36,334 bases of DNA from Pseudomonadota bacterium (lineage in GTDB: Bacteria > Pseudomonadota > Alphaproteobacteria > Rhizobiales > Hyphomicrobiaceae), in contig CAUJKI010000540.1 in assembly GCA_963205015.1 (NCBI GenBank), forward strand, positions 1 to 36,334, written 5' to 3'. The translations under genes were made by a program, and so were the position numbers. Positions 14,474-23,114 of this stretch are shown here, one piece after another. The number at the start of each line of letters is the position of its first letter. Position 1 is the first letter of the stretch. Under the pieces are notes generated by a model. The model saw only the letters and a program-made list of their open reading frames with translations, had not been told where the DNA came from and did not search any database.

Positions 14474-15595
14474 TCACCTGAAGAAAACGTCGGCGCGCAT
14501 GCCTGGCAGCAGCGGAGAGCTGCCTTCGAGGTCGACCATGACCTCCATCACCTCGACATCCGTGGCACGGCGCGCCCCGCGAGAGCCCATGCGCGGCATC
14601 GCGAGCGAGGGCGCAAGATCCTTCACCGTGCCGCTGAACTCCCGACCTGGATAGGCCGTGCTGCGCACGAAGACCTGCTGCCCAGCCTTGATCTTCGCGA
14701 CGTCCTGCTCGTCGACCTCGGCGCGGACGCGCATCAGTGTCAGATCACCCATGATCAGAAGAACGTGCTCGCTGGAGGGCATGGCAAGCTCGCCGGCTTT
14801 GGCGTGGATCTGTAGTACCGATCCGGTAAGGGGCGCGCGAACGCGCATCTTCTCGACCATTTCCTCGGCGAGGGTCAACTCGGCGCGGGCCGCGATGAGC
14901 GCCGCCTCGACGCGATTGGGTGCCGGCACTTTGGATTTGGCATGCGCCATGGCCAAAGCCGTGCGCTCCTGTCGTAGCTTGTCCTCGGCCTGTGCGAGCT
15001 GATTGCGCGCCTGGATGAGTGCCTGCGGATTGCCGGCTGCCCTGCGATCCGCAGCGATCACGCCGTCGAGGGCGAAGCGTGCGTTGGTCGAGGCGCGCTC
15101 GGCAGTATAGAGCGCGTCCTCGGCCTTGCGCACGTCCTCGCGCCCGGCCGTCTCGGGCTGCGCGTCGCGCTCGCGCTGGCGCACGGAGACTTCGACCTCG
15201 GCCGCCGCGAGGCGCGCGCGCGCTTCCTTGTCGTTGAGGCGGACCAGCACGTCGCCCTTGGTGACGCGGTCGCCGGTGGCGGCATTCACCTCCTGAATGC
15301 GGCCCGGCGCGAGAGAGCTCACGCGGATCTGCCCCGAGCGCGGCTCGACCCGTCCGGGTGCCGCTGCGATCCACGTCGTTTGCGGACGTTCGGTAACCGG
15401 CTGCGCGGGAATTGCGGAAGCTGGTGCGATCGCTGCCGCGAAATGCTTGGGTGCGGCCTGCATCGCCGCGAGGACGGAGGCCGAGCCTGCAGCGAAGAGG
15501 CCGAGCATCAGGACAAGTCGGCGTCCTCGCCCATGGGAGCGGTCTGCGTTTGCCATCGACTGCGGTTGGCTGGTGGTCTGCTGGTGCGACTGCAT
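14474..15595 (-). CDS. HlyD/DevB-type periplasmic adaptor (membrane fusion protein) of an ABC exporter
   Basis: 373 aa. There is an N-terminal cytoplasmic tail, one membrane segment (about 27-47, LVLMLGLFAAGSASVLAAM) and then the periplasmic part: a split lipoyl/barrel-sandwich motif (GRVEPRSGQIRVSSLAPGRIQEVNAATGDRVTKGDVLVRL ... VRAPLTGSVLQIHAKAGELA), a long alpha-helical hairpin of heptad-like sequence between (about 125-235), and a beta-barrel (VDEQDVAKIKAGQQVFV). This is the DevB/MacA-like adaptor, which links an inner-membrane ABC transporter to an outer-membrane channel. The likely partners are the permease and ATPase at 20604-22568, which share the same operator motif. ATG at 15595 has a strong AGGAGG. 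No TolC-like gene is seen nearby. Confidence 0.9.
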   Translation of the reverse strand: MQSHQQTTSQPQSMANADRSHGRGRRLVLMLGLFAAGSASVLAAMQAAPKHFAAAIAPASAIPAQPVTERPQTTWIAAAPGRVEPRSGQIRVSSLAPGRIQEVNAATGDRVTKGDVLVRLNDKEARARLAAAEVEVSVRQRERDAQPETAGREDVRKAEDALYTAERASTNARFALDGVIAADRRAAGNPQALIQARNQLAQAEDKLRQERTALAMAHAKSKVPAPNRVEAALIAARAELTLAEEMVEKMRVRAPLTGSVLQIHAKAGELAMPSSEHVLLIMGDLTLMRVRAEVDEQDVAKIKAGQQVFVRSTAYPGREFSGTVKDLAPSLAMPRMGSRGARRATDVEVMEVMVDLEGSSPLLPGMRADVFFR

Positions 15596-15690: not shown

Positions 15691-15708
15691 CTGTTTCGCA
15701 GGGAACAG
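15691..15708. promoter_or_regulatory. Crp-like palindromic operator, site a (adaptor gene)
   Basis: CTGTTTCGCAGGGAACAG. It ends 95 bp before the HlyD/DevB start codon on the minus strand. Twenty bases downstream, on that strand, is TAGGGT, a weak -10 candidate; this matches the spacing of a class II activator site. It is one of six copies in the cluster. Confidence 0.7.
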
Positions 15709-15742: not shown

Positions 15743-15760
15743 CTGTTATGCCGGTAACAG
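15743..15760. promoter_or_regulatory. Crp-like palindromic operator, site b (cold-shock-like gene)
   Basis: CTGTTATGCCGGTAACAG. It lies 87 bp before the plus-strand cold-shock-like gene. Its centre is 52 bp (about five helical turns) from site a, so the two divergent units have paired sites on one DNA face. Confidence 0.68.
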
Positions 15761-15847: not shown

Positions 15848-16072
15848 ATGCAGGGCGAAATCACGAAATATCGCGACGATCTCGGGTTCGGCGTCATCAC
15901 GACCGATGACGGGCGCCGCTATCGCTTCGCCAGGAAGCAGGTCATCAGCGCCTCGGCGGACCTTGTCGGGCAGGAAGTCGATTTCCTCATTTCGGGGAAC
16001 CAGCCGGCGGAGATCATCGTCCTATCGGGATCGGCGTGGACAGCCTTTGGCGGCATTCCCGGAACGGCATGA
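15848..16072 (+). CDS. Small cold-shock-like (OB-fold) protein
   Basis: 74 aa: MQGEITKYRDDLGFGVITTDDGRRYRF, then VGQEVDFLISG. The pattern G-x-I-x-K-Y-x-x-x-L-G-F-G-V-I followed by V-G-x-E-V-x-F resembles the first strands of a cold-shock domain (GxVKWFNxxKGFGFI ... VxFxV), although the aromatic RNP1 residues are only partly kept. A nucleic-acid-binding role is inferred, not shown. ATG at 15848 has AAGGAGAG 6 bp upstream. Site b upstream and a terminator at 16104-16141 make it a single-gene unit of the local regulon. Confidence 0.82.
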   Translation: MQGEITKYRDDLGFGVITTDDGRRYRFARKQVISASADLVGQEVDFLISGNQPAEIIVLSGSAWTAFGGIPGTA

Positions 16073-16255: not shown

Positions 16256-16453
16256 TCAGCGCGCGTGAACGCGCAGGATAGGGGCGCGCAACCAGAGGAG
16301 GTTCGGGCAGAGCGTCTGCGTGCACTGGCGCGTGGCGGAAGCGCCATCTTCCGCTGGCGTGGTGGGAGATGCGGTGGCCCAGCTTCCGACGAAGGTGCCG
16401 ATCATGACGGCGGCGAGCATGGCCAGACTACGAGGTTTCATCAGCGTGTGCAT
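16256..16453 (-). CDS. Small secreted protein of unknown function
   Basis: 65 aa. A clear signal peptide: basic start (MHTLMKPRS), hydrophobic core LAMLAAVMIGTFVGSW and an ATA/S cleavage site near residue 28. The mature part of about 37 aa has two cysteines (C44, C49; C-x4-C) and an arginine-rich end. I do not recognise a family. Support for expression: a perfect copy of the Crp-like operator (site c) lies 59 bp upstream, the same distance as for two other genes of the cluster, and no other gene could use that site. A GGAG lies about 9 bp before ATG 16453. The frame continues upstream, but without a ribosome site. Confidence 0.55.
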   Translation of the reverse strand: MHTLMKPRSLAMLAAVMIGTFVGSWATASPTTPAEDGASATRQCTQTLCPNLLWLRAPILRVHAR

Positions 16454-16512: not shown

Positions 16513-16530
16513 CTGTTCCGTCCGGAACAG
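16513..16530. promoter_or_regulatory. Crp-like palindromic operator, site c
   Basis: CTGTTCCGTCCGGAACAG, perfectly symmetric except for the two central bases. It ends 59 bp before the small secreted protein on the minus strand. It also lies 14 bp beyond the stop of the adenylate cyclase gene, which it cannot activate from there. Confidence 0.75.
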
Positions 16531-16543
16531 TGGGCTGGCGGGG

Positions 16544-17887
16544 CTAAAGTGTCGAGCGCGCCACCGGACCTGCCAGGGTGCCCTCTTGCGGCACCAGTAG
16601 CGGTTCGCTCGTGGTGACAGTACCGCCGCGGTGCTCAGGGCGCCGTCCTTTCAGGAACCAGGTGTGCACTGCGCCATATCCCTTGATGTCGATGCTGCCG
16701 TTCGGCTCGAGCCGGTAGCCATCGCCGAGGCGGATCTGCGTCAGTTCGGATACGAGGATGGCATGGGGTTGGCTCAGGTTCTCGAGGCGCGAGGCGAGGT
16801 TCACCGTATCGCCCCACACATCGTAGATCAGACGCTTCGCCCCGATCACGCCGGCCAGCACGGGCCCGCTGGCTATGCCGATGCGAAGCGCGATGTCGAC
16901 GTCGTGCTCCTTTGATATGCGCTGAGCAGCATCGAGCATACCGAGTGCCATGCCGGCAATTCGATCCGCATGATCTGCAGCAGGCACCGGCAAGCCGGCC
17001 GCAGCCATATAGGCGTCGCCGATGGTCTTGATCTTCTCCACGCCGCAGCGCTCGGCCAGCTCATCGAAGGCGCGCACGATCGTGTTGAGAAGCGCAACTG
17101 TTCGCGCGGGGCCAAGCTCTTTGGCGAGCGCAACGAAGCCCTTGATGTCGGCAAAGAGGACGGACGCCTCGTCGAACTCGTTGGCAATGGTCGTGTCGGG
17201 CGCCTCTTTCAGTTTGCCGACGATAGTGTCCGGCAGGATATTGTGCAGGAGCGCGTCCGTTTCGGCTTCGGCCTGCTCGACGAGGCGGAACGCATAGTAG
17301 AGCACGATCGAGATGACACAGAATGTGGTGGCCACGGCGGTGACGTGAAGCGACGCGATGTCGGCGGCGGAGATGACCAGCCCTTGGGCACTCTCGAGAA
17401 AGAACAGCCAGGCCATCAGATACAGGGTGATCGCGACGGCGATGGCGACGACGATGAGCTTCAGCCGTTCGACGCCCAGGATGACGAAGAAGGCCGCGGG
17501 GGCAGCGAAGTACTGCATATGGATGCCCGTTTCGCGCCCGACGTAGGAGGTCAGGACGAAGATGCCGACGAGCTCCGAGATCAGGATCGCCATGGGGCCG
17601 ACCAGCTCGCCATAGCGATGCAGGAAAGGAATCGACAGGGCAACCATGGCCATCAGGAAATTGATGATGATGACCGGCTTCCAGGATTGGTAATCCAGGA
17701 ACATCTGCTGGAAGGCATAGACGAGGGTGAAGAGCGCGATCACGTACGCCGTGACATTCATGATCTTGAGGCGGCGTCTCACGCGGGGAGGATAGCCCTC
17801 GGTGCCATACGCAGACAGCCGCGAGAGTGAGCTGGCGAGCTTGCGTAGGACCGGGTTATCCAAAAGTGGGATGCGAGACCGCCCCAT
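16544..17887 (-). CDS. Membrane-bound class III adenylate cyclase
   Basis: 447 aa. The N-terminal half has about six membrane helices (about 43-200), and the C-terminal half is a class III cyclase homology domain. Metal-binding Asp residues are D247 (LFADIKGF) and D291 (TIGDAYM). The transition-state pair is N363 and R367 (TVNLASR). The adenine-specifying residues are those of adenylate, not guanylate, cyclases: K287 in KTIGD and D356 in YDVWGD. The predicted reaction is ATP to cAMP at the cytoplasmic face, with the membrane domain as a possible sensor. ATG at 17887 has GGAG 9 bp upstream; a TTG at 17941 is a weaker alternative. It is divergent from the Crp-like gene, with only 166 bp between, suggesting a signal-and-receptor pair. 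Confidence 0.92.
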   Translation of the reverse strand: MGRSRIPLLDNPVLRKLASSLSRLSAYGTEGYPPRVRRRLKIMNVTAYVIALFTLVYAFQQMFLDYQSWKPVIIINFLMAMVALSIPFLHRYGELVGPMAILISELVGIFVLTSYVGRETGIHMQYFAAPAAFFVILGVERLKLIVVAIAVAITLYLMAWLFFLESAQGLVISAADIASLHVTAVATTFCVISIVLYYAFRLVEQAEAETDALLHNILPDTIVGKLKEAPDTTIANEFDEASVLFADIKGFVALAKELGPARTVALLNTIVRAFDELAERCGVEKIKTIGDAYMAAAGLPVPAADHADRIAGMALGMLDAAQRISKEHDVDIALRIGIASGPVLAGVIGAKRLIYDVWGDTVNLASRLENLSQPHAILVSELTQIRLGDGYRLEPNGSIDIKGYGAVHTWFLKGRRPEHRGGTVTTSEPLLVPQEGTLAGPVARSTL

Positions 17888-18053
17888 CCTGCGTCTCCAA
17901 TTCGGGTGGGACAATATCCGGCGAACGACCCGCCATCTCAACCCTGTTCAGATGGCTTGGTTCATGCGTCCGACATGATAGGATGCGCCGCTTCCCGCCC
18001 GCCTTTTAGCCCGATGGCACGTTGCGGGCCATAGACTCCTCGGATGTGGCCGC

Positions 18054-18755
18054 ATGGATCACAAGACAATTGCCCTACTGCTGGCGCAGACGGATCTTTT
18101 CCGCGATCTCGATGATGGCGACCGGCTGGCCGTCGTCGGCCGCATGCGGCGCGTTCAATTCGAAACGAACCAGATGATCTTCTCGCGCGGAGACCCCGGC
18201 CGGGAGATTTATCTTGTGCTCGATGGGCGCATTCGCCTGTCGGTGCTGTCGGCCGAGGGACGGGAGCTGTCGTTCGCGCACGCCGGGCCAGGCCAGCTCT
18301 TTGGCGAGATCGCGACGCTCGACGGCGGTGAGCGGACCGCGGGTGCGACGGCGATCGGTCCTGTCAGCGCCATGAGCCTTCCCCAGAAGGCACTCATCGA
18401 GTTGATCGAGAACCACCCCAAGGTGGCCAAGGCGGCCATCCGTTTCCTCTGCCAGCGTCTCAGGGATACGGACCATAAGCTCGAGGCCATCGCGCTGCAT
18501 CGCATCGAGGTACGCCTCGCGCGGCTCATGCTTTCCGCGATCAAGCTGCAGGGCGCGGTGCCGAAGAACGGCGAAGTCAGGCTCGATCTCGGGCTTTCGC
18601 AGAGTGAGGTGGGGCTCCTGATCGGCGCGAGCCGGCCGAAGGTCAATCTGGCGCTCACGGCACTCGAGGACATGGGCGCGATCACGAGATCGGGCGCCGC
18701 CTACGTCTGCGACATCGAGGTCCTCGGCTCCGTGGCGGATATGGATACGGCCTGA
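18054..18755 (+). CDS. Crp/Fnr-family transcriptional regulator
   Basis: 233 aa. The N-terminal cyclic-nucleotide-binding barrel (about 12-125) has the phosphate-binding cassette F-GEIA-TLDGGERTAGA: E85 for ribose, R94-T95-A96 for phosphate. The long C-helix has T139 where E. coli CRP has T127, which contacts adenine; the next residue is Asp rather than Ser. No FNR cysteine cluster is present. The winged HTH (about 181-205) has recognition helix ASRPKVNLAL: R194 corresponds to CRP R180, but E181 and R185 are replaced by P195 and L199. cAMP binding is therefore plausible, with altered DNA specificity. Likely target: the six TGTTC-N6-GAACA sites around it. No such site lies before its own gene. 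Confidence 0.94.
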   Translation: MDHKTIALLLAQTDLFRDLDDGDRLAVVGRMRRVQFETNQMIFSRGDPGREIYLVLDGRIRLSVLSAEGRELSFAHAGPGQLFGEIATLDGGERTAGATAIGPVSAMSLPQKALIELIENHPKVAKAAIRFLCQRLRDTDHKLEAIALHRIEVRLARLMLSAIKLQGAVPKNGEVRLDLGLSQSEVGLLIGASRPKVNLALTALEDMGAITRSGAAYVCDIEVLGSVADMDTA

Positions 18756-18867: not shown

Positions 18868-18885
18868 TTGTTCCAGGCGGAACAG
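18868..18885. promoter_or_regulatory. Crp-like palindromic operator, site d (hydrolase gene)
   Basis: TTGTTCCAGGCGGAACAG. It ends 59 bp before the alpha/beta hydrolase start. TACGGT stands 20 bp downstream, in the position of a -10 element for a class II Crp promoter. There is no -35-like sequence. Confidence 0.72.
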
Positions 18886-18944
18886 CGCCTGAGCGGTCCG
18901 TTGCCTACGGTTCGAGCATCGTCACTCGAGCCGGGGTTGAGCAC

Positions 18945-19805
18945 ATGACCTTCGAGAACCAGGGCTACTATGTCGCCGGCGGCCGTACCGGTGTGCTGCT
19001 GATGCACGGCCTGTGCGGCACGCCGACCGAGATGCGCTTCGTGGCAAACGGCCTGGCGCGGACGGGATGCACCGTCTACTGCCCCATGCTTGCAGGCCAT
19101 GGCGGCACGGAAGCGGACATCAAGTCCACCACCTGGCAGGACTGGTACGGGAGCGCGGAGCGAGCCCTCGACCGCCTGTGCAAGGAGTGCGACACCGTCA
19201 TCGTCGGCGGCCTTTCCACGGGCGCCGTGCTCGCCCTGCTGCTCGCCGCGCGCCGCCCCGCCGATGTGCAGGGCACGGCCCTGCTGGCGCCGACGCTCTG
19301 GCTCAACGGCTGGCTCATTCCCTGGTATGCGCGGCTTTTCCGCCTCGTTTTCAGCACGCGCGTTGCCAACCTGATCGGCTTTCCCGATCTCCATCCGCAC
19401 GGCATCAAGGACGAGCGCATCCGCGAGTTCATTCGCAATGCGCTCTTCAGCGGCGATGGCTCCGTGGCCGGCCTGCCGTCCACGCCGGGCGGCGCAGTCC
19501 TGGAGCACCGGCGTCTGGTCCAGGCCACGTGCGCCGAGCTCGGCCGTATCGAGCAGCCGACCCTGATCATTCACCCGCGCGAGGACGACTACGCCGACCT
19601 CGACAACGCCTGGTACCTCCAGCGCCGACTCAAGGGCTTGGTCGACATGGTGGTGCTCGATGACAGCTATCACATCGTCACGGTCGATCGTCAGCGCCAC
19701 GTGGTCGTCGAGCGGATTGCCGCGTTCGTGGGGGCCGTTGCGGCCCGCTTGAGCGGCAAGGCGGGCTCCGCCCGCAACGGCGCGACGGCACGTGCAGCGG
19801 CCTGA
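18945..19805 (+). CDS. Alpha/beta hydrolase, Est30-like carboxylesterase / acylglycerol lipase type
   Basis: 286 aa, cytoplasmic (no signal peptide). The oxyanion-hole segment VLLMHGLCGTPTEM (17-30), nucleophile elbow GGLSTG with S91, acid D215 (HPREDDYADLDNA) and H243 (DDSYHIVTVDR) form a complete catalytic triad. The pattern matches bacterial carboxylesterases and monoacylglycerol lipases that cleave short acyl esters. The C-terminal 25 residues are Ala-rich and variable. It is preceded by site d and followed 100 bp later by the next regulon gene. In context it may modify or recycle the acyl compound handled by the exporter, which is inference only. Confidence 0.88.
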   Translation: MTFENQGYYVAGGRTGVLLMHGLCGTPTEMRFVANGLARTGCTVYCPMLAGHGGTEADIKSTTWQDWYGSAERALDRLCKECDTVIVGGLSTGAVLALLLAARRPADVQGTALLAPTLWLNGWLIPWYARLFRLVFSTRVANLIGFPDLHPHGIKDERIREFIRNALFSGDGSVAGLPSTPGGAVLEHRRLVQATCAELGRIEQPTLIIHPREDDYADLDNAWYLQRRLKGLVDMVVLDDSYHIVTVDRQRHVVVERIAAFVGAVAARLSGKAGSARNGATARAAA

Positions 19806-19830: not shown

Positions 19831-19848
19831 CTGTACCCCGCGGAACAG
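19831..19848. promoter_or_regulatory. Crp-like palindromic operator, site e (exported protein / exporter operon)
   Basis: CTGTACCCCGCGGAACAG. It ends 57 bp before the start of the 215-aa exported protein. CACAAT (4 of 6 to TATAAT) lies 20 bp downstream. It probably drives the operon 19906-22568, as there is no other site before the permease or ATPase. Confidence 0.68.
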
Positions 19849-19905
19849 CGCCCCCGCCGCACCTCCCACACAATGCTTACACCTCGAACACGAAAGGAAC
19901 GCCCA

Positions 19906-20553
19906 ATGACCAAGCTTCCCATCGCCCTCGCCACCCTGGCCATTGCTGCTGCTTCGTCCATCACGCTCACCACCGAAGCCGATGCTCGCGGAGGACATCG
20001 CGGACACTTCCGCTTCCATCACATCCACGTCGGTCCCCCCATCTATCGTTATGAGGAGCCGGAGCGCGTCTATCGCAAGCCGAAGGTCGTGAAGCCGGTT
20101 GCGGCTCCCGCCCCCGCTCCCGTCGTCAAGTTCGCGGATGGCGAAGGACGCATGTTCGATCGTGCCAGCAAGACGTGGTTCGACGGCGCCGGCGTCTGCT
20201 GGAAGGGCGAGAAGACGTTCGCTTACCGCAGCGGTTCCTGGTTCTACGGCGATGCGCGCTGGGTGCAGACGAGCACCGGTTGGGGCGTCTCCTCGGGTGA
20301 TCTCCCCGAGCAGGTCGACTGCAGCGCGGTCAAGGCGTTCGTCGGCAAGATCAAGGCGGTGAGCACCGCTGCGGAAGAATCCGCGAACGTGGAGCCAAAG
20401 CCCTCCGCAGCCAAGCAGGCGTCGCCGGTCCGCACCGTTGACCCGGCGCCCGCCATCGTCGCGCCGAAGGCGCCTGAAGCCACGGCCAACGCGAGCGACT
20501 GCAAGAAGTATCTCCCGAGCCTCGGAGAGACCGTCTCCGTTCCCTGCACCTAG
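19906..20553 (+). CDS. Exported protein of unknown function
   Basis: 215 aa. Signal peptide: MTKLPIALATLAIAAASSITLTT with a probable ADA cleavage site near residue 27. The mature N-terminus is His-rich (GGHRGHFRFHHIHVGPP), followed by a Pro/Ala/Lys linker (about 50-70). A compact central region (about 72-135) is rich in Trp and Tyr: TWFDGAGVCWKGEKTF, GSWFYGDARWVQT. An Ala/Pro/Lys-rich tail ends with SDCKKYLPSLGETVSVPCT. Four cysteines could form two disulfides in the periplasm. No family recognised. GAAAGGA precedes ATG 19906, and site e lies upstream. It is the first gene of the probable exporter operon. Confidence 0.85.
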   Translation: MTKLPIALATLAIAAASSITLTTEADARGGHRGHFRFHHIHVGPPIYRYEEPERVYRKPKVVKPVAAPAPAPVVKFADGEGRMFDRASKTWFDGAGVCWKGEKTFAYRSGSWFYGDARWVQTSTGWGVSSGDLPEQVDCSAVKAFVGKIKAVSTAAEESANVEPKPSAAKQASPVRTVDPAPAIVAPKAPEATANASDCKKYLPSLGETVSVPCT

Positions 20554-20603
20554 TAGGCGGCTTGCCCGCTCGAAGGCCCAACGACACGCCTGGGAGACCT
20601 ACG

Positions 20604-21812
20604 ATGCATACGACGGCTGAAGCCACTTCCATCGCCATGCCGGGCCGACCGATGCCGGCCCGCAAGGGGGCGATGCGCCTCCCGATGGTCCCGAAGCTCG
20701 CCTATCGCAATCTCTTTCATGACCGCCTCGGGCTGATTGTGACGGTGGTCGGCATCGTCTTCTCGGTCGTCCTGGTGGCGGTCCAGTTCGGGCTGTACCT
20801 CGGCTCGGAGAACCGCATCGCCGCCATGTTCGATCATGCCGAAGGCGATCTCTGGGTCGTGCCGCTCGGCACGAAGAGCTTCGACGATCCCGCCATGCTC
20901 TCCGGACGCGAGCGCCACAATATCCTCTCAATGCGTGGCGTCGCGAACGTGCAGGAGCTGGCCGTCGGCTTCGTCAACTGGCGCAAACCGAAGGGAGGCT
21001 CGACAGCGGCGCTGCTGGTCGGCTCGGAGATCAGGCAAGGCTCGGCATTGCCGTGGAGCGTGATCGAAGGCAGCGCCAACGCGCTCGCCGCGCCGTCGGC
21101 CGTCGCTGTCGATAGCACGTATTTCCAGGAGCTCGGCATCGCGCGCATGGGCGATCGCGCCGAGATCAATAATATGGACGTCACCGTGCAAGCCGTGACC
21201 AAGGGCATCCGCTCGTTCACGACGCTGCCGTATGTCTTCACCACTCTTTCGACCGCGCGCACGCTGCTCGGCGCATCTGCAGACCAGTCGTCCTACACGC
21301 TCGTCTCGGTTGCGCCAGGCACCTCGGTCGAGGATCTCCGTGCCGCGCTTACGAAGCGCCTGCCGGATACCGAGATCCTGACGCACGCCGAGTTCCGCAA
21401 GCGCAGCCTCGACTACTGGCTGTTCGAGACGGGGGCGGGTGCGGCGCTGATCGCAGGCGCACTGCTCGGTATCATCGTCGGCATGGTGATCGTTGCGCAG
21501 ACGCTCTACGCGAGCACGAAGGATCACCTCAATGAATTCGCGACGCTGCGCGCGCTCGGGGCCTCGGCGAGCTACATCAACAAGGTCATTCTGATCCAGG
21601 CCATTCTCAGTGCAGTGATCGGCTACGTCCTCGGCATGGTTCTGAACCTCATTGTCATCTGGGCCGTGGAAGACTCGACGCTCCTGATCGTCATGACACC
21701 GCGTCTGGCGCTCATGCTGCTCGCCCTGACGGTCGGCATGTGTGTGCTCGCGGCCCTCTGCGCCATCTTCAAAGTCATCCGCATCGATCCGGCCGTGGTG
21801 TTCAGCCGCTGA
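20604..21812 (+). CDS. DevC-type ABC exporter permease (FtsX/MacB-like)
   Basis: 402 aa. Topology is that of DevC/MacB permeases: one N-terminal membrane helix (about 43-64, GLIVTVVGIVFSVVLVAVQFG), a large periplasmic domain (about 65-270, with GDLWVVPLGTKSFDDPAML and TFTTLPYVFTTL-like segments) and three C-terminal helices (AGALLGIIVGMVIVAQTLY; VILIQAILSAVIGYVLGMVLNLIVIW; LALMLLALTVGMCVLAALCAIF), ending RIDPAVVFSR. The phrase LAYRNLFHDRLGLIVTVVGI is typical of the DevC branch. ATG at 20604 is preceded by GGGAG. It is followed 24 bp later by the ATPase, and the adaptor is encoded at 14474-15595. Related systems export glycolipids, heterocyst lipids or macrolides; the cargo here is unknown. 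Confidence 0.9.
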   Translation: MHTTAEATSIAMPGRPMPARKGAMRLPMVPKLAYRNLFHDRLGLIVTVVGIVFSVVLVAVQFGLYLGSENRIAAMFDHAEGDLWVVPLGTKSFDDPAMLSGRERHNILSMRGVANVQELAVGFVNWRKPKGGSTAALLVGSEIRQGSALPWSVIEGSANALAAPSAVAVDSTYFQELGIARMGDRAEINNMDVTVQAVTKGIRSFTTLPYVFTTLSTARTLLGASADQSSYTLVSVAPGTSVEDLRAALTKRLPDTEILTHAEFRKRSLDYWLFETGAGAALIAGALLGIIVGMVIVAQTLYASTKDHLNEFATLRALGASASYINKVILIQAILSAVIGYVLGMVLNLIVIWAVEDSTLLIVMTPRLALMLLALTVGMCVLAALCAIFKVIRIDPAVVFSR

Positions 21813-21836: not shown

Positions 21837-22568
21837 ATGACGAACTTCATGCTCGAAGCGCGCGACATCACGAAGGTCTACCGCTCGGAAGCCGGTGACA
21901 TCATGCCCCTCAAGGGCGTCAGCGTTGAGCTGGCCGCCGGCGAGCTCACCCTGCTCATGGGCCCGTCCGGCAGCGGCAAGACCACGCTGCTCTCCATCCT
22001 CGGCTGCATCCTCTCGCCGACGAGCGGCAGCCTTCAGATTGCTGGCCACGCGACGGCAGGTCTCAGTGCCGAGGGCATGGCCGGTCTCCGCCGCCGTCAT
22101 GTCGGGTTCGTGTTCCAGTCCTACAACCTCGTGCCGACGCTGACGGCGCTCGAGAACGTCATGCTCGCGCTCGACTTGAGGGGGGCTTCGCGGGCCGAAG
22201 CGCCGGATCTCGCCTGGGAAGCCCTGAGCGCTGTCAGGCTCTCGCATCGCGCGCATGTCATGCCGAGCAAGCTCTCCGGCGGCGAGAAGCAGCGCGTGTC
22301 GATCGCGCGCGCACTGGCCGGCGCGCCGTCAGTGATTCTCGCCGACGAGCCGACAGCGGCGCTCGACAGCGAGAATGGTCAGGCCGTCATGGCGCTGCTT
22401 GCCGAGGTGGCGCGGGACACGCGCCGCGCGGTCCTCGTCGTCACGCACGATCATCGCACGCTCAAGTACGGCGATCGTATGATCCGCATCGAGGATGGCC
22501 GCATCGCAAGCCGCGCCCGTCGCCGCAGTGCGACGGTTGCCGACGTCGAGCTCGCCCCTGCTGCGTAA
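21837..22568 (+). CDS. DevA/LolD-type ABC exporter ATPase
   Basis: 243 aa, a single nucleotide-binding domain. Walker A is GPSGSGKTT (about 42-50), Q-loop FVFQSYNLVPTLTA, signature LSGGEKQR, Walker B VILADEPTAALDS and H-loop VVTHDHR. The pattern belongs to the MacB/LolD/DevA exporter class, which pairs with FtsX-like permeases. It starts 24 bp after the permease with TTGGAGAG upstream, so co-translation as one transporter is expected. The Arg-rich tail (SRARRRSATVADVELAPAA) extends beyond the core domain. Confidence 0.95.
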   Translation: MTNFMLEARDITKVYRSEAGDIMPLKGVSVELAAGELTLLMGPSGSGKTTLLSILGCILSPTSGSLQIAGHATAGLSAEGMAGLRRRHVGFVFQSYNLVPTLTALENVMLALDLRGASRAEAPDLAWEALSAVRLSHRAHVMPSKLSGGEKQRVSIARALAGAPSVILADEPTAALDSENGQAVMALLAEVARDTRRAVLVVTHDHRTLKYGDRMIRIEDGRIASRARRRSATVADVELAPAA

Positions 22569-22579
22569 TTTTCGCGATC

Positions 22580-22597
22580 CTGTTTCCGGCGGAACAG
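22580..22597. promoter_or_regulatory. Crp-like palindromic operator, site f (DUF2147 gene)
   Basis: CTGTTTCCGGCGGAACAG. It ends 97 bp before the DUF2147 start. CATACT (4 of 6 to TATAAT) lies 20 bp downstream, as for a class II Crp promoter. Confidence 0.72.
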
Positions 22598-22694
22598 CGC
22601 CGCACTGCCCCAATCAACATACTGCCCCCTGCGCCGACCTGAAGAACGGGTCGGGCAACACCAGGACCCAACGGACAAGCCAAAGGAGAGTGTC

Positions 22695-23114
22695 ATGATC
22701 GTTTCCGTCAAGCGCATGGCCCGTGCTGCCGCCCTCTTCGCCGCGAGCATAGCCACGACGACGCCGTCTGCTGCCAACGAGGCGACCGGCCTCTGGTTCG
22801 ACCACACCGGCCGCGGCGCTGTCGAGATCACCAACTGCGGCGACGCACTTTGCGGCCGCATCATCTGGCTCAAGGACACAGCCAACAACAAGACCTGTGG
22901 CAAGCAGGTGATCGGCAACGTAAAGGCTGTTGGCGCCGGCAAATGGGACAAGGGTTGGATCTATGATCCGGAGGACGATGCGCGCTACAGCGTCGAGATC
23001 ACCCCTTTCGGGGGCGACCGGCTGAAGGTCATGGGCTATATGGGAAGCAAGATGCTCAGCGAAACCATGACGTGGCGGCGGGCGCCGGCCGATCTCAAGC
23101 GTTGCAATGCCTGA
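22695..23114 (+). CDS. DUF2147 periplasmic protein
   Basis: 139 aa. It has a signal peptide (MIVSVKRMARAAALFAASIATTTPSAA, cleavage near residue 27) and then the DUF2147 pattern: GLWFDHTGRGAVEITNCGDALCGRIIWLKD ... GKQVIGNVKAVGAGKWDKGWIYDPEDDARYSVEI ... LKVMGYMGSKMLSETMTWRR. This is a small all-beta, lipocalin-like fold in the periplasm; ligands are not established. Cys pairs (C48, C53) are typical. AAAGGAGAG lies 4 bp before ATG 22695. It is monocistronic between site f and a terminator. Confidence 0.9.
   Translation: MIVSVKRMARAAALFAASIATTTPSAANEATGLWFDHTGRGAVEITNCGDALCGRIIWLKDTANNKTCGKQVIGNVKAVGAGKWDKGWIYDPEDDARYSVEITPFGGDRLKVMGYMGSKMLSETMTWRRAPADLKRCNA

Follow-up and report, generated by a model that had tools for sequence, protein, structure and literature searches.

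A predicted cAMP circuit joining a MASE7 adenylate cyclase and a Clr-like regulator to a tripartite exporter locus in Hyphomicrobiaceae

Gene content of the locus

The stretch of DNA analysed here (the window, 36,334 nucleotides) belongs to genome G000 of the Hyphomicrobiaceae, a 5.56-Mb draft of 687 contigs that is 95% complete. It contains a gene for a class III adenylate cyclase with a MASE7 membrane domain of six transmembrane segments (447 residues; 16544–17887, minus strand) and, divergent from it, a gene for a Clr-like regulator of the Crp family (233 residues; 18054–18755, plus strand), at the positions and in the arrangement that an earlier note on this DNA had given for them. The reading frame of the cyclase is open from a TTG at 17941 (465 residues), and its start was placed at ATG 17887 because the methionine there aligns in two same-genus orthologues and the stretch upstream of it does not. 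With this start, the 166-bp intergenic region proposed earlier (17888–18053) also holds.

On the cyclase side, and likewise on the minus strand, lie genes for a periplasmic adaptor of the HlyD/MacA/DevB type (14474–15595; Pfam HlyD_D23 and HlyD_3) and for a small protein of 65 residues with a signal-peptide-like N-terminus (16256–16453). On the regulator side, all on the plus strand, follow genes for an alpha/beta hydrolase (18945–19805; Pfam Hydrolase_4) with a GLSTG elbow and monoacylglycerol lipase 4lhe as its best PDB match (E 5e-28), a secreted-type protein to which no Pfam family could be assigned (19906–20553), a MacB/DevC-type ABC exporter permease (20562–21812), an ABC ATPase of the DevA/LolD/MacB type (21837–22568) and a DUF2147 protein (22695–23114; Pfam PF09917), for which no solved relative was found by sequence. 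A 74-residue open reading frame (15848–16072, plus strand) lies between the adaptor and peptide genes, in a region that is kept in the relatives G003 and G004.

The permease (MacB_PCD plus FtsX), the ABC ATPase and the HlyD adaptor all score above the Pfam cut-offs, and together they have the composition of a tripartite exporter of the MacB superfamily. Exporters of the DevBCA/MacAB type (PMC8277102) likewise consist of an adaptor, a MacB-fold permease and an ATPase, and the subunits show weak matches to DevA, DevB and DevC, all of them below the curated NCBI cut-offs (214 bits against 296 for DevA, 99 against 129 for DevB, TIGR02971, and 134 against 290 for DevC). Unlike DevBCA, which exports glycolipid in Anabaena (PMC8277102), the locus also includes a hydrolase, a DUF2147 protein and secreted proteins.

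Conserved residues of the cyclase and the regulator

The cyclase matches MASE7 (PF20967) with 136 bits (cut-off 26) and Guanylate_cyc (PF00211) with 184 bits (cut-off 22), and its best PDB match is 7yzi, of the mycobacterial Cya/Rv1625c type, over nearly the full length (E 1.8e-73). The complete catalytic set is present, i.e. D265 and D309 for the metal, K305 and D374 for the purine, and N381 and R385, in the numbering of the 465-residue frame. Counted from ATG 17887 the purine pair becomes K287 and D356, the residues that the earlier note had called adenine-specific; the alignment confirms these as well as both metal Asp residues and the Asn/Arg pair. The Lys/Asp purine pair and both metal Asp residues are also invariant in 18 aligned orthologues. 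The product of the cyclase is predicted to be cAMP.

Mycobacterial Cya/Rv1625c (7YZI; PMC12505454, PMC9433096) shares with the window cyclase the combination of a MASE7-type membrane domain and a class III catalytic domain, and the Rv1625c membrane domain acts as receptor for inhibitory C18:1 fatty acids (PMC12505454). The cyclase described here differs from Cya/Rv1625c in its genetic link to a Clr-like receptor and to the regulon of an exporter. In the CyaC-CycR-Clr system of S. meliloti (PMC10463352), too, a membrane cyclase acts together with Clr and has a regulator gene as its neighbour. CyaC is, however, a di-heme redox sensor that pairs with a TetR regulator (PMC10463352), whereas the window cyclase is of the MASE7 type and has no TetR gene beside it. 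Furthermore, Thr484 of CyaC, the residue mutated to silence that cyclase (PMC10463352), corresponds by motif position to Asp374 here. A search of the literature on MASE7 with adenylate cyclase yielded no paper naming MASE7.

The closest solved sequence to the regulator is Clr of S. meliloti (7pza/7pzb; E 1e-42), followed by mycobacterial CRP (1e-29). All side chains checked with which Clr reads bases (Q184, S194, R195, K197 and N199; PMC10127613) are identical in the regulator, and they are identical in nearly all aligned Crp proteins of the family, which group beside Clr and G044 in a tree, in a group that does not contain Clr itself. With E. coli CRP the regulator has the fold, the cAMP cassette and the class II activation geometry in common, but the match is only about 53 bits, the operator is another one, and the E. 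coli cassette is one residue longer; the score against the CRP equivalog model (NF008732) is 58.7 bits, with a cut-off of 266.

The phosphate cassette of the regulator consists of G84-E85 and R94-T95-A96, and its C-helix carries T139 and D140, so that the cassette and the Thr at the adenine-contact position are present as previously described. In Clr the corresponding residues are G85-E86 and R95-S96, at equal spacing; the distance of nine residues from Glu to Arg is common to the regulator, Clr and mycobacterial CRP. The two purine contacts on the C-helix of Clr, associated with its dual specificity, are T140-T141, in place of which the regulator has T139-D140. The regulator appears to work like Clr, though its ligand profile, i.e. 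nucleotide affinity or selectivity, may differ because D140 replaces the purine contact T141.

Operators, promoters and co-inheritance

The published Clr box is HGTYHCNNNNGRWACA. Both perfect operators of the window, TGTTCCAGGCGGAACA (18869–18884, plus strand) and TGTTCCGGACGGAACA (16514–16529, minus strand), fit this box, and the other sites, TGTACCCCGCGGAACA (19832–19847, plus strand), TGTTTCCGGCGGAACA (22581–22596, plus strand) and TGTTCCCTGCGAAACA (15692–15707, minus strand), are at most one mismatch away from TGTTCCNNNNGGAACA. The operator at 18869 has a -10 hexamer TACGGT (18906–18911) and is predicted to drive the hydrolase gene, the first target. With CACAAT (19869–19874) the operator at 19832 would drive the genes of the secreted protein, the permease and the ATPase; with CATACT (22618–22623) the one at 22581 would drive the DUF2147 gene, and with TAGGGT (15670–15665) the one at 15692 the adaptor gene. 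The operator at 16514 lies upstream of the gene for the 65-residue peptide, with a candidate -10 sequence CACACT that is one base off; the peptide gene stands at a constant place after this operator and has orthologues in G003, G004 and G029. The operator positions of the window carry boxes also in G003, G004, G018 and G029. A weak operator-like site with three mismatches (TGTTATGCCGGTAACA, 15744–15759) lies upstream of the 74-residue frame, and two same-genus relatives have a site with two mismatches in its place.

Only strict sites are informative, as a search of the window with up to three mismatches gave 13 sites versus 8.9 expected, which is no significant excess. At one mismatch or less the whole 5.56-Mb genome contains 12 sites versus 17 in a reversed control, and is therefore not enriched in boxes by number alone. 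Five of the 12 are found here within 7 kb (15.7–22.6 kb), including the only two perfect operators of the genome. The operator signal in this genome is its concentration at one locus.

Of 94 sites, which are from related loci and hence not independent, 72 have a YANNNT hexamer 29.5 bases downstream from the centre of the box, always in a single orientation only; the frequency at random or shifted positions is about 3.2%. With this spacing the centre of the box falls at -41.5, the position of a class II activator. Promoters whose sites lie at -42 or farther upstream are likewise activated by Clr (PMC10127613, PMC5498481). With one mismatch or fewer allowed, the full promoter model, i.e. operator plus -10 hexamer, has four matches in the genome, all of them at the locus, and this fixed geometry provides a ready predictor of regulons in Hyphomicrobiaceae.

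The 166-bp region shared by the cyclase and regulator genes contains no Clr box, so that mutual regulation or autoregulation through such a box is not indicated. Autoregulation as a general feature was also considered and dropped, since the region immediately preceding the tandem crp-cyclase operons of other genomes showed no Clr box. Upstream of crp in six tandem operons (L063 and L070–L074) there is a recurrent direct repeat of the TGCAA type, about 20 bp apart, at which a different regulator may act.

The permease at 20562 has two kinds of paralogue in most genomes of the family. Those with 52–57% identity are present nearly everywhere, and those with about 58% or more go with the regulator in 74 of 76 occurrences. 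In a set of exporter loci chosen without the use of boxes, 73 operators were found in 40 regulated-exporter loci (2 in the reversed control), mostly unlinked to the regulator gene, versus none in 20 paralogous loci of similar gene content, so that the paralogous exporter serves as a natural control. The window genome itself has a second exporter set of adaptor, ATPase, permease and DUF2147 protein without Clr boxes (L138, G000:C462:10773-11954). Such box-free sets, present in most family genomes, are likely constitutive paralogues.

The regulator was found in 87 of 103 family genomes, the cyclase in 81 and both in 79 (Fisher P 5e-10, from counts that ignore shared ancestry). The two genes are adjacent in 68 genomes, as tandem crp-cyclase pairs in 64 and divergently in four (the window genome, G003, G004 and G029). 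Perfect operators follow the regulator: genomes with it contain 351, versus 47 in the reversed control, and those without it 7 versus 10, shared ancestry again being ignored. Comparative genomics therefore bears out the earlier view of cyclase and regulator as one module, with an export system under control of the regulator. The pairing is not obligatory, as this cyclase is absent from eight genomes that do contain the regulator, and in G018 regulator, exporter and operators occur together with the cyclase on another contig. In G006 the Crp gene adjoins a different class III cyclase, with an open frame of 1076 residues (L026 region, G006:C111:89083-90439), so cyclase partners may be exchanged.

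Proposed circuit and its alternatives

We consider it probable that the locus encodes a dedicated cAMP circuit, running from the MASE7 cyclase through the Clr-like receptor to the tripartite exporter locus. A signal in the membrane, which is probably a fatty acid or some other lipid, would be read by the membrane domain of the cyclase and would alter the rate at which the enzyme makes cAMP. The nucleotide would then bind the adjacent Clr-like dimer through the GE..RTA cassette and T139/D140 of the C-helix, and the loaded dimer would bind TGTTCC-N4-GGAACA boxes at -41.5 as a class II activator. In vivo this should activate five promoters, for the MacB/DevBCA-type exporter with its adaptor, the hydrolase, the secreted protein, the DUF2147 protein and the small secreted peptide. 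The C18:1 receptor of Rv1625c, the likeness of the hydrolase to monoacylglycerol lipase and the glycolipids of DevBCA make a lipid-responsive circuit for export or envelope remodelling the best guess by analogy, in which a lipid may be both signal and cargo.

How self-contained such a circuit would be was judged from the rest of the genome. A single class III cyclase (PF00211) was found, and only one of seven cNMP-fold proteins carries the GE..R(S/T) cassette, although a draft of 687 contigs that is 95% complete could lack a further cyclase or receptor. The description of the module as self-contained holds in this sense for the window genome. The accompanying proposal that cAMP is made locally is not borne out, as nothing shows spatial confinement, and with a sole cyclase in the genome local cAMP is also unnecessary.

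In a stronger form of the proposal, which is tentative and, in our estimate, rather doubtful, the whole cAMP pathway of the genus would be a minimal, single-purpose system made up of a single lipid-sensing MASE7 cyclase, a single Clr-like receptor and a single locus for lipid export. Such a system would have been reduced from a larger regulon of the family, and a purine pocket built on the Asp would set the choice of nucleotide. G004 and most other relatives carry further class III cyclases, and a second paralogue of the Clr-like type, with 59% identity and no cyclase gene next to it, occurs in the same-genus genome G003 (L062, G003:C2:1243215-1243883). Because predicted regulons are larger in relatives such as G011 and G019, and G003 keeps this second protein, the form with a single locus is probably a derived state of the genus.

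The larger regulons would also fit a global cAMP/Clr system of the ordinary kind known from Sinorhizobium, in which the exporter locus is one of many targets and nothing is dedicated. The Clr system of S. meliloti comprises 28 cyclases and more than 150 regulated genes (PMC10127613, PMC5498481), with a clr gene that is not divergent from a cyclase gene as here, and other genera of the family have many more boxes (13 perfect ones in G011) and several class III cyclases. In the window genome, by contrast, one cyclase was found and the promoter model at one mismatch or less points to essentially one target locus, and the same-genus genomes G001 and G002 have neither gene. We regard a global system as unlikely.

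Less probable still is that the regulator uses cGMP or another nucleotide, an Asp in place of Ser128 of CRP and T141 of Clr having retuned the purine pocket, and that the cyclase serves elsewhere or makes another product. Clr, the closest solved relative, responds to cAMP and cGMP alike (PMC10127613). In Crp proteins of the family T139 is often replaced by Ala and D140 is kept in most, which suggests that the purine may be contacted chiefly by the Asp. In CNG channels, an Asp on the C-helix favours cGMP. Against this, the partner cyclases invariably have the adenine-type Lys and Asp next to regulators of the Asp type, and mycobacterial CRP, a cAMP receptor, has Asn at the position of D140, which therefore tolerates change. 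The earlier hint at a different ligand, drawn from the Asp and the short cassette, is weakened accordingly: E. coli CRP was the wrong yardstick, Clr and mycobacterial CRP both have a cassette of this length, and the Asp occurs in most Crp proteins of the family.

That a different protein of the Crp/Fnr type acts at the operators, with the cyclase-Crp pair a mere neighbour, is very improbable: the window genome has six other cNMP-fold proteins, and G113 and G114 retain one to three perfect boxes without regulator or cyclase, but the SRPKVN recognition helix is absent from all six, boxes track the regulator over 103 genomes, and regulator residues and boxes match Clr and the Clr box.

The dedicated circuit from MASE7 cyclase to exporter agrees in outline with the module, operators and export control of the earlier note. 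Its parts are of known kinds, but a small dedicated circuit of this type appears not to have been described before: the literature searched contained no case of an exporter under the control of a dedicated pair of MASE7 cyclase and Clr, and nothing relevant on cAMP in Hyphomicrobium or Hyphomicrobiaceae. Studies of cAMP usually deal with a global signal, for which many cyclases supply a single receptor. Because a single cyclase, a single receptor and a single target locus can be picked out from the sequence, the locus could provide a clean system for MASE7 sensing, and what these membrane domains sense is a question common to Rv1625c and mammalian cyclases. In other genera, boxes outside the exporter locus precede genes for secreted proteins and for a membrane protein resembling fatty-acid hydroxylases (L178 and further loci), which hints at an envelope regulon.
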